A stretch of 64,000 nt of DNA from a virus, in IMG/VR virus record IMGVR_UViG_3300027816_000074, positions 44,620-108,619 of that record; one strand, given 5' to 3'. Shown one piece after another: positions 59,098 through 64,000 of this stretch; positions within the stretch are counted from its first letter, which is position 1, and each line of letters starts with the position of its first letter. Both the position numbers and the translations under genes were made by a program. The notes beneath the pieces are model-generated. The model did not search any database and was not told the origin of the DNA. It was given only the letters and a program-made list of their open reading frames with translations.

Positions 59098-59105
59098 ACA
59101 AGTTG

Positions 59106-59567
59106 ATGTCATGGTATTATCAAAATCAACTTGTTACAGAATTGCCTGAAGACTGTGTGGGATTCGTGTATCTTATCACTAATACAGCTACAGGCAGAAA
59201 ATATATAGGCAAAAAACTGGCAAAATTCAGTAAAACTAGCTATAAAACAGTAACACTTAAAAACGGTACTAAAAAAAAGAAACGCATTAAGTCAAAAATA
59301 GACTCCGATTGGCAAAAATACTATGGCTCAAACGACAGGCTCAATCAAGATGTTACAACATTAGGTCCTGATCGCTTTCTCAGAGAAATTCTCTTTTACT
59401 GTAAAAGCAAGTCAGAATGTAGTTATATTGAAGCAAGAGAACAATTTGATCGTAGAGTTCTCGAAACTGACGACTACTATAATGGCATAATCAATGTACG
59501 TGTAGGCAGTTCACCATCGCTTAGACAGGCTCTTCTAGAACACAATTTAAAATCATCTAACACTTAA
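59106..59567 (+). CDS. GIY-YIG-like endonuclease-domain protein
   Basis: 153 residues from the ATG at 59106; a TTG one codon earlier is possible, and the ribosome-binding site is weak. The N-terminal part has the GIY-like strand FVYLITN (residues 20-26) and YIGKK (YIG, 33-35), then KLAKFSKTSYKTVTLKNGTK with a lysine-rich loop, and EAREQFDRRVL near the middle. This matches small GIY-YIG-like proteins conserved in T4-like phages. No separate DNA-binding domain is present, so a free-standing homing endonuclease is less likely than a repair or processing nuclease. It directly precedes the structured gene-free region. Confidence 0.68.
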   Translation: MSWYYQNQLVTELPEDCVGFVYLITNTATGRKYIGKKLAKFSKTSYKTVTLKNGTKKKKRIKSKIDSDWQKYYGSNDRLNQDVTTLGPDRFLREILFYCKSKSECSYIEAREQFDRRVLETDDYYNGIINVRVGSSPSLRQALLEHNLKSSNT

Positions 59568-60040
59568 GGTTAGCGGGCCAGTTTGTAATACCGCTGTGGA
59601 AAAACCGACGTAAGAAATCGGACACGTAACATATTGATGCACTCCCGTGGAGTTAATCCACTATCCTGAAAAATTGGAAGCGAGTCAGAGGGTTCGAACC
59701 ATATGCCCAACGCATTGATATAGTATGAATGTTAGCATACGAAAAACCGTGCTATAAAAACTTAGACACTAGGAACGAGGTCTAAGGCGCTTTTTAAGCG
59801 TATCGACGTAGGTTGGGAAAGGTCAGAGCCCATTAGTACACGGTAAAAACACCTACTTCCACGTATGGCTGGGGCAACTCACATGAAAATTGGAACCTGT
59901 AGGAGGTTCCGTTTGACCTAAACAATCTACATGAATTTTAAACAGTTATCACATACGTGATAACTTCTAATTATATCATTAAATAAAGAAAAGCTCGAGC
60001 GTTAGCGAAGAGCAGATGAACGCAGTTCATCTTAAATCAT
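59568..60040 (+). ncRNA. Gene-free, hairpin-rich stretch; candidate large structured RNA
   Basis: No open frame of useful length. Perfect stems: AGCGG/CCGCT (59572-59576, 59591-59595); GTGGA/TCCAC (59647-59651, 59657-59661); palindrome GGTTCGAACC (59691-59700); GTATG/CATAC (59723-59727, 59736-59740); CTTAGAC/GTCTAAG (59761-59767, 59780-59786); CGCTT/AAGCG (59788-59792, 59796-59800); GTAGGT/ACCTAC (59808-59813, 59851-59856); GGAACC/GGTTCC (59892-59897, 59905-59910); GTTATCAC/GTGATAAC (59945-59952, 59957-59964); AGATGAAC/GTTCATCT (60014-60021, 60025-60032). G+C over 59581-59940 is about 43% by hand count, above the neighbouring genes. The strand follows the flanking genes. I cannot assign an RNA family; GOLLD, ROOL or a degenerate intron are possibilities. 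Confidence 0.6.
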
Positions 60041-60059
60041 TCTAAATAAATAAAATATC

Positions 60060-61052
60060 ATGAGAATTTCTGATCTTATCGCTGAAGCTGGTCCTACTAG
60101 TTATGTACCCGCTAGTCCTGGAAGCCCTATTGTGGTGCCTACTCCACTAACACCACCAGCTACACCTACACCAAGTCCTAGTGCGCCTGCACCAACACCT
60201 TCAGGTCCTGATCCTGATAAAAGAGCAGAACGTCGTAGTAAGGTAGAGCGAGGTAGAAAAATACAGAGAAAAATACAGTCAGGTAAAAATTATCTAATTG
60301 ATCTAATTCAAGAACGTAGGAACGAGCCTGCATACAATAAGCTGGGCAGAGCTAGTTTTCTAAAACTTGGCGGTGCTACGACACGTATTCTAAGACTGAT
60401 AGGCTACGCAGATCTTGCTACTGGTTATTGGACAGACATTGCTATTGTAGAAAAGGAACTAGCTCGACAAGTTGCTGCTGGTGAAATTACCAAAGAGCAG
60501 GCCAATGAAGACTACAACGAAACTCGTAAACAGCTATTAGCCACAATCGTAACTATCATTGCTGCCAGTTCCTTTATCAAGTATGCTCTACGCACAGCCA
60601 TGGGTTTAAGATGGCTAGTTCGTGCGTTTGGTCTAGTAGAAACTGCTGCCACTGGCGGTCTCGGAATTGGATTATTAATTGCTTCTGAAATTGCTATGAC
60701 TTATTTTATGACTTGGGCCACCAGTGATGAAGGCAAGAAAACTATAGCAGAGATTATCACCTATCCAATCATTGGAGATATTAAAGCCAGCGATGCAATT
60801 GGCTTCCTAGCAACTGCACCAATTGACAAAGTCAAATCACTATTCAGTACATGGACTAAGAGTGATGCAAAGCCTAACAAGCCTGGAGATCCTGCAAAAC
60901 CAGATCAAGGACAGGGAACACAGCCAGCTGATGGTAAATGGAAACCTAATGGTCCTAAACCAGATCCTGCTAAACCCGGAGAACCAGGTTCCTACAGTCA
61001 GTTTGCAACAGATCCAGAACTGAAAAAAGCTCTACAGGCTGCTGGTCTTTAA
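60060..61052 (+). CDS. Proline-rich protein with two membrane-type segments
   Basis: 330 residues, function not recognised. Layout: MRISDLIAEAG start, a Pro/Thr/Ser-rich stretch (residues 17-50), a very basic segment (54-75), a helical core, two hydrophobic segments (about 159-178, TIVTIIAASSFIKYAL; about 196-219, GGLGIGLLIASEIAMTYFM), and a Pro/Lys/Gly-rich C-terminal region. No Shine-Dalgarno sequence is visible before the ATG, and an AATAAATA-like box ends only 7 nt upstream. It lies between the structured region and the tail hub genes and could be a structural or membrane-active protein. The 3' end overlaps the convergent small gene by 4 nt. Confidence 0.65.
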   Translation: MRISDLIAEAGPTSYVPASPGSPIVVPTPLTPPATPTPSPSAPAPTPSGPDPDKRAERRSKVERGRKIQRKIQSGKNYLIDLIQERRNEPAYNKLGRASFLKLGGATTRILRLIGYADLATGYWTDIAIVEKELARQVAAGEITKEQANEDYNETRKQLLATIVTIIAASSFIKYALRTAMGLRWLVRAFGLVETAATGGLGIGLLIASEIAMTYFMTWATSDEGKKTIAEIITYPIIGDIKASDAIGFLATAPIDKVKSLFSTWTKSDAKPNKPGDPAKPDQGQGTQPADGKWKPNGPKPDPAKPGEPGSYSQFATDPELKKALQAAGL

Positions 61053-62154: not shown

Positions 62155-64000
62155 ATGCCTTTAGACCGCGGCGACATAGACATTATAAGCGAAGCATTTA
62201 AACGTGCTATGAAAGATGGCGGGCCGTCAATGCCTTCAGCTCCGTCTGTTCCAGGCGGAAAACCTCCTTCGCAGTGGACCAAAACAATAGATGCAGTAGG
62301 CGGTGAATTACTAGGATTAGGTAAAGCAGCTACTGGTATTGCGTCTGAAGGATTTGGCAAAATGCTGCAGGGCGGCGTTAAAGTATCTGATGGATTTAAC
62401 ATTGTCAGTCAAAATCTTATAGCATCAGACAGCCACATAGGTAAAGCACTTGGCGGTATAGCAAAAGTGGGCGGTAACATTGTTACTTCGCTTGAAGACA
62501 CTATAACCACATTAGACGGACTCAGTAACACCGGTGCTTCTTTTGGAAATAGTCTAGTAGAATTAAGAATGGCCAGTGCAGGTACAAGATTACCTCTTAG
62601 AGAGTTTAGTGAGGTAATTGCTAAGAACAGTACAGCATTTGCAAAACTACCAGGTGGTGTTAATGAAGGAGCAAAGTTATTTGCTAAAGCTAGTGAGGAG
62701 ATGTTTGACAAAAGCGGTCTAATTGATAATTTGACCAAAATGGGATATACCTCTACAGATTTGAACAGTATCCTAAGCTACACAATTAGTCAACAAAAAC
62801 GCTTAAATTTAAATGACGCTGAAGCAACAGCTAATGCTATAAAACAAGCAGAATCATTAGCGTTTGAGATGGATGCTATTGCCAAGATAACAGGCAAAAG
62901 TCGTAAAGAACAAGAAGACGAGTTAAGAAAACAAAAAGAAAACGGACAAGTAAGAGCAGCAGTTGACCTTGCCTTAAGAAAAGGTGGCGAAGGTGTAAAA
63001 ACAGCATTTGATTCTATGACCGCAGCCAGTAAAATAGCAGGGCCAGACTTTGCTAAACTACAAGAACAGATGTTTGCTATGGGTCGTCCTTCTAAAGACA
63101 TGGCAGAAAAGTTCGCTATGGCCGGAGGTGAAGCTCAAAGATTAATGAAAGCATCAGCTGATGCAGCTAAACGCGGCGACGAAGCTACTGCTAAACGTCT
63201 GACACAAGAAGCTGCTATAGCCTACGCTGCGAATCAAAGATCAGAAGCTATGATGACTCTAGCATCGCAAGGAAATCAGTCTGCTATAGAATCTAATCAG
63301 AATGTAGCAGCGTTTTCTGATCGGATGGCAGCTACTGCTAAAGAACTTAAAGTTGATCTTAACACTCGAGAAGGTCAAAGAAAAGTTTTAGAAAAGATTA
63401 ATGCAGATACTGCTAAAGAGCAAAAGTCAAACGGCGACGGTGTAACTAGGACAACAAAAGCTGTAACCAACAATCTAAACGATCTTTCTGCAGGCGTACA
63501 AAAAGCAACTTACGGACAATTACAGAATAACAAAGTTATTGGCAAAGCATTTGACGATTATTACAAGACTCTAGATGCTGCAAAAGGTAAAGATAATAAA
63601 ATACGAGCAGAAGCCGAACAAAAAACTGATAAAGCACTTACAAACTTGTTAGGTATGATTTCTGATCAAAGACCAGACAGTAAATCAATGATAGACGCAA
63701 TACAAAAGGGGCTAGCTGAGTCAAAAGAACGAGGTACAGGACTAACTGCTGACTCTGCAGAGATGAGAGGCTTACTGGCGTTCTTGAAAAATGATAAAAG
63801 TAAAGATGCATTAATGGCTACAATGGAAAAACAAGCCAAGGCTCAAAATATGGATACTAATAAGTATCTTCAAAACATATTAGCACAAGGTCCTGGTGCA
63901 ACTAAACAACTTGTTGACGCTGCTCTATCTGAAAGTAACAGACGGACTGCCGAAGAGCAAAGAAAAGCTCGACAGACTCCTGGAGAAAGTAGATTAGAAG
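62155..64000 (+). CDS. Tail tape-measure-like protein, N-terminal part (cut by window end)
   Basis: The frame stays open from the ATG at 62155 to the end of the window: 615 codons with no stop. AGGA lies 8 nt upstream. The protein begins MPLDRGDIDIISEAFKRAMK, then has a Gly/Ala-rich amphipathic region (GGELLGLGKAATGIASEGFG) and long Ala/Lys/Glu/Gln helices (QAESLAFEMDAIAKITGKS, KEQEDELRKQKENGQVRAAV). This is how phage tail-length tape-measure proteins look, and its place next to gp26 fits the T4 gp29 (hub/tail length) slot. Identity is inferred from composition and position. Confidence 0.7.
   Translation, partial: MPLDRGDIDIISEAFKRAMKDGGPSMPSAPSVPGGKPPSQWTKTIDAVGGELLGLGKAATGIASEGFGKMLQGGVKVSDGFNIVSQNLIASDSHIGKALGGIAKVGGNIVTSLEDTITTLDGLSNTGASFGNSLVELRMASAGTRLPLREFSEVIAKNSTAFAKLPGGVNEGAKLFAKASEEMFDKSGLIDNLTKMGYTSTDLNSILSYTISQQKRLNLNDAEATANAIKQAESLAFEMDAIAKITGKSRKEQEDELRKQKENGQVRAAVDLALRKGGEGVKTAFDSMTAASKIAGPDFAKLQEQMFAMGRPSKDMAEKFAMAGGEAQRLMKASADAAKRGDEATAKRLTQEAAIAYAANQRSEAMMTLASQGNQSAIESNQNVAAFSDRMAATAKELKVDLNTREGQRKVLEKINADTAKEQKSNGDGVTRTTKAVTNNLNDLSAGVQKATYGQLQNNKVIGKAFDDYYKTLDAAKGKDNKIRAEAEQKTDKALTNLLGMISDQRPDSKSMIDAIQKGLAESKERGTGLTADSAEMRGLLAFLKNDKSKDALMATMEKQAKAQNMDTNKYLQNILAQGPGATKQLVDAALSESNRRTAEEQRKARQTPGESRLE

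Follow-up and report, generated by a model that had tools for sequence, protein, structure and literature searches.

Large folded phage RNAs such as ROOL and GOLLD are widespread yet functionally unexplained: both are ornate, intricately folded molecules found in phages as well as prophages, for which cryo-EM has revealed a homo-oligomeric RNA cage (PMC12286853). A different kind of reference point is Polynucleobacter-1 (RF01718), a 141-nt orphan motif in Rfam whose name appears, in the literature searched, solely in its 2010 description (Weinberg et al. 2010, PMC2864571); the table in that work gives it a 'y' in a column that we read as cis-regulatory. Here we analyze a gene-free stretch within a 64,000-nt segment (the window) of a 108,619-base virus record. 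Our results indicate that, in T4-like phages, the stretch probably encodes a multi-domain non-coding RNA of ~480 nt, one that would act in trans and be equipped with a twin-site 3′ module. A preliminary description of this DNA had proposed a candidate large phage-encoded structured RNA, an interpretation that the comparison of related sequences supports.

The gap free of open reading frames (ORFs) extends over 492 nt (59568-60059), from the GIY-YIG stop codon at 59567 to the next ATG at 60060, with no credible ORF in between, as the preliminary description had stated, and the perfect stems it claimed are present. Its assertion that this is the only gap above 300 nt does not hold under the criterion used here, the lack of cover by an ORF of at least 100 aa, since positions 2291-2841 (551 nt) and 63102-64000 (899 nt, touching the window edge) are likewise uncovered, and short genes may fill both. 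For 59568-60040 the G+C content amounts to 0.414, and for 59568-59940 to 0.437, while the whole window has 0.347; the claimed excess over the flanks is borne out for the kilobase upstream (0.345) and fails for the kilobase downstream (0.432). Folding energy gives z-scores of -3.8 on the + strand and -2.3 on the - strand with 100 shuffles, and of -2.8 with 15 shuffles, where two of 45 other window segments score lower. Single-sequence folding energy supports structure only weakly and is unremarkable beside other window segments. By comparative evidence, namely a kept position and extensive compensatory change, the stretch clearly exceeds chance. The features delineated in the window and in related loci are compiled in Table 1.

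Table 1. Features of the RNA locus. Positions refer to the window, except for the last five rows, which refer to the locus named in each.
Feature	Position	Strand	Basis or remark
SegE-type GIY-YIG endonuclease gene, TTG start	59103-59567	+	PF19835, E 1.7e-32; synteny
Large structured RNA, type A (predicted)	59568-60040 (ends approximate, about 59557-60035; ~480 nt)	+	locus, covariation
5′ hairpin	59571-59576 with 59591-59596	+	covarying helix, 6 bp
Long-range helix	59631-59637 with 59715-59721	+	7 bp, 3 pairs covary strongly
Long-range helix	59749-59752 with 59834-59838	+	5 aligned pairs, all among top covarying
Hairpin CTTAGAC...GTCTAAG, loop TAGGAACGA	59762-59786	+	compensatory changes, loop invariant
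Core	59805-59856	+	consensus pairs
Pseudoknot GAC/GUC	59805-59807 with 59822-59824	+	two pairs covary, 99-100% canonical
Core stem GUAGGU/ACCUAC	59808-59813 with 59851-59856	+	consensus pairs
Core stem UGGG/CCCA	59814-59817 with 59829-59832	+	consensus pairs
R1 (ACUC ACAUGA A)	59877-59887	+	hexamer identical to R2
Hairpin GGAACC/GGUUCC between R1 and R2	59892-59910	+	replaced in other phages
R2 (AUCU ACAUGA A)	59925-59935	+	hexamer identical to R1
Tail hairpin, internal-loop motif GAGCGnnAGCGAA	59993-60013	+	regular expression
Second tail hairpin GAUGAACGCAGUUCAUC	60015-60031	+	six consensus pairs, all with compensatory double changes
T4-type late promoter motif CTAAATAAATA	60042-60052	+	ATAAATA-type motif
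Variable late gene, 330 aa, N-terminus MRISDLIAEA (capsid-targeting-like)	60060-61052	+
ORF after GIY-YIG	L008 536-1606		RNA comes after ORF
ORF after GIY-YIG	L029 4431-5261		RNA comes after ORF
ORF after GIY-YIG	L063 4426-5571
ORF after GIY-YIG	L049 4420-5538
ORF after GIY-YIG	L022 4432-5250

Used as query in a protein search, the GIY-YIG gene yielded 80 viral loci, most of which have a G+C-rich gap of like length after this gene; the whole stretch is present at 77-80% identity in two of them, and parts of it in others. Two pattern scans of IMG/VR contigs, retrieving at least 120 stretches each, extended the collection to at least 227 unique loci. Among the matches listed, the GIY-YIG gene lies within the available upstream DNA at 197 of the 227, and most display the order gp46, p81, GIY-YIG, RNA, variable gene, p74, gp26. 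Two types of RNA occupy this one locus, type A (that of the window) and a sister type B. Named phages yielded no significant match in nucleotide searches with the window and with type A and type B RNAs, and GIY-YIG relatives in five named phage records are followed by no gap of comparable length. The GIY-YIG-like gene noted earlier directly before the stretch is SegE-type and syntenic, though not obligatory: it is absent from the Rhodobacteraceae copies described below, and in some phages an extra ORF intervenes. Such ORFs directly after the GIY-YIG gene encode ~270-380 aa without a confident Pfam family. The SegE-type protein is labeled 'NAD synthetase' in phrog_447 (PHROG) and in many records, which looks like a propagated misannotation.

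Searched with Rfam covariance models, the window RNA matches no family, either at gathering score or at E 10. This includes GOLLD and ROOL, the RNAs that the preliminary description had named for comparison. Weak minus-strand matches to RgsA, snR73 and mir-135 fell far below gathering scores and were discarded. Type B RNAs, conversely, score 83-121 bits against RF01718, covering all of its 141 positions, at a place immediately following the GIY-YIG gene. Membership of RF01718 was set at a covariance-model score of at least 37 bits; the window lies below this threshold and gives no match even at E 10, nor is there one in G000. Because this score is not reached, the window RNA is not a member of RF01718, despite sharing the locus, the R1/R2 module and the tail with the type B carriers. 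The lack of any signature of a known RNA, asserted in the preliminary description, accordingly applies to the window and not to its sister RNAs at the same locus. Since type B carries RF01718 as its 5′ domain, this family seems to represent a single domain within a far larger phage RNA. The domain at the 5′ end is exchangeable, being of RF01718 type in type B and different in type A, and the window RNA is related only remotely to anything catalogued. ARAGORN detects neither tRNA nor tmRNA in the window; a tRNA-like part, suggested by the T-loop-like GGTTCGAACC, was rejected on the grounds that GGTTCGAACC is not conserved.

Compensatory base changes among homologues, whose absence the preliminary description would have taken as evidence against an RNA, are abundant. 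In 39 type A RNAs, RNAalifold identifies 31 consensus pairs, 17 of them with double compensatory changes, and further helices were found in two independent alignments. In larger alignments, counted without a phylogenetic null model, the 50 pairs with the strongest covariation stack about three times more often in antiparallel than in parallel orientation (15 vs 5 in type A, 8 vs 3 in type B), and canonical covarying pairs show more G-U than A-C (0.117 vs 0.022 in type A, 0.083 vs 0.014 in type B). Because the covarying pairs are Watson-Crick and antiparallel and favor G-U over A-C, we infer with high confidence that a conserved large phage RNA exists and is read from the + strand. In the predicted fold, the helix pairing 59631-59637 with 59715-59721 encloses a variable part of the 5′ domain. 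In the core, a UGGG/CCCA hairpin is capped by a GUAGGU/ACCUAC stem, and the hairpin loop folds back to form a pseudoknot; in type B a by-eye analogue pairs GUYNN with NNRAC around GGTACCGG...ACCGCC. The GAGCGnnAGCGAA tail motif was found by regular expression in 148 of 215 loci among the matches listed, and occurs once in the window's own record. Neither a sigma-70-type promoter nor an intrinsic terminator was found on the + strand at the RNA, which weighs against reading the stretch as an RNA gene. The type A RNA of two loci (L011 and L020) contains, 3′ of the AGGAACGA hairpin, an AT-rich insert with an inverted repeat (TAGTGTATAC...TATACACTATA) that looks like a small mobile repeat.

The 3′ module is built on two short elements with the general forms ACUC-rsAUrA-w (R1) and AUCU-rsAUrA-w (R2). 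Their hexamers (rsAUrA) are identical to each other within every one of the 118 loci obtained in the pair of searches that left R1/R2 identity unconstrained, in spite of occurring as eight variants; were the two sites independent, identity would be expected in a fraction of ~0.18 (the sum of squared variant frequencies). The overall count, among the matches listed, is 227/227, a figure that includes a type A scan in which part of the motif was fixed. Parsimony on a FastTree tree of GIY-YIG proteins assigns 53 changes to the hexamer variant, an approximate number in that the tree rests on one short gene. The base following the hexamer agrees between R1 and R2 in 99% of cases. The three bases 5′ of the hexamer, conversely, are CTC in R1 and TCT in R2 at all 227 loci listed, where the search required ACTC and ATCT and may have missed exceptions. 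The intervening hairpin is swapped wholesale in other phages, for UUUGCCC/GGGCAAA or UUCACCG/CGGUGAA. Among alignment columns within the RNA, no third column covaries convincingly with R1/R2, and a single search of phage genomes for the complementary target WTYRTSYGGGT revealed no conserved partner elsewhere, and in G000 none fitting that genome's own variant.

Downstream, the tail hairpins end just before the T4-type late promoter motif. Motifs of the ATAAATA type are concentrated between +50 and +150 past R2, with hardly any upstream, and a late-promoter motif separates the RNA from the next gene in 104 of 119 loci. The slot after the RNA is hypervariable in gene content, unlike the RNA. Close to the N-terminus, 43/119 downstream genes, compared with 9% of control ORFs, have a hydrophobic-x-E-[AGSN] motif (MKxxEIIxE-like), and these N-termini resemble, at the level of sequence, those that target T4 internal proteins to the capsid.

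Five Rhodobacteraceae genomes contain a relative of the RNA's 3′ part with equal hexamers, and a sixth genome emerged among 150 members of the family; many of the 31 pattern matches in genome contigs were set aside as chance, having unequal hexamers or coding-like sequence. The 3′ module and the tail are common to phage and Rhodobacteraceae copies, with the tail motif downstream of the latter wherever enough sequence is present. An ATAAATA-like motif precedes the RNA in three of these copies, and likewise in G001 in the second copy. As regards the twin elements, one Rhodobacteraceae genome has a second copy with a difference at one place, C vs T. Where contigs are long enough (L293, L295, L296, L298 and L334), a ~188-aa tyrosine recombinase gene lies near the RNA relative, with a ~500-aa integrase beside it in L293 and L298. 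These islands are possibly phage satellites sharing the element with a T4-like helper. The use of R1/R2 as recombinase crossover sites, suggested by this proximity, was rejected, given that the window's own record contains no PF00589 match.

The chief rival to a trans-acting RNA is an element working at the DNA level, such as a replication origin or packaging site with a folding transcript (for instance, an origin primer RNA), in which R1 and R2 would be iteron-like binding sites in the DNA. The stretch lies at the junction of the rightward operon with convergent late genes, R1 and R2 are direct repeats, and the presence of the element on recombinase-bearing chromosomal islands is what a satellite borrowing a phage origin or packaging site would show. 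The strand-asymmetric G-U excess and the many compensatory pairs, however, indicate selection on RNA, leaving this explanation unlikely. If the stretch were instead a leader regulating the late gene after it in cis, this would account for an RNA that always lies just upstream of a gene, and for the entry of Polynucleobacter-1 in the 2010 table; yet the late-promoter motif stands between the two, and the downstream gene varies greatly where the RNA does not, so we deem a leader quite unlikely.

Recombination between R1 and R2, instead of a shared partner, might also maintain their identity, as these are direct repeats placed 48 nt apart, start to start. Gene conversion tends, however, to erase the kind of sharp boundary observed at CTC vs TCT, and we hold this origin of the identity to be very unlikely. 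Least credible, to the point of being nearly negligible, is the idea that the stretch is a mobile ribozyme or self-splicing intron that homes together with the adjoining GIY-YIG gene: Rfam finds no self-splicing intron core in the stretch, the flanking genes are complete and none is interrupted, the locus is fixed, and copies without GIY-YIG exist.

Under the preferred reading of a trans-acting non-coding RNA, the molecule would be transcribed from the + strand, either forming the 3′ portion of the gp47-gp46-GIY-YIG operon transcript or being cut from it, and would end before the late promoter. The 3′ module would serve as its working end, where a rigid hairpin stands between two identical elements of 6-7 nt that may form a site pair for one co-evolving partner. 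Because the hexamers change only together, R1 and R2 can be viewed as paired sites for a single partner, and we propose, with moderate to low confidence, that they are twin binding sites. The partner could be RNA, a DNA site or protein; the fixed CUC/UCU difference leans weakly towards base pairing with RNA or DNA over a protein partner, because both CUC and UCU can pair with a G-rich sequence through G-U wobble. More tentatively, and with somewhat more doubt than assurance, the phage and island copies might together represent an unrecognized class of large phage RNA, with RF01718 as a detachable 5′ domain and twin 6-7-nt sites, carried also on Rhodobacteraceae tyrosine-recombinase islands.

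Set against described systems, an RNA that keeps one locus across many uncultured T4-like phages would add a further large phage RNA to those known. It resembles ROOL and GOLLD in being large, ornate and phage-borne, and differs from them in being shorter and in lying in a window without tRNA, whereas ROOL and GOLLD are often near tRNA islands. To our knowledge the R1/R2 pair has no counterpart in either. Two short sites that change only together offer a handle on function, predicting one partner that binds both. The locus is also akin to T4-like head-protein loci with capsid-targeting N-termini, through the MKxxEIIxE-like N-termini behind a late promoter, although we know of no described locus of that kind that includes such an RNA. 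Finally, the Rfam model of RF01718 comprises 141 nt alone, whereas the phage RNA goes on through the core, the R1/R2 module and the tail hairpins, re-framing this orphan motif as part of what appears to be a much larger molecule.
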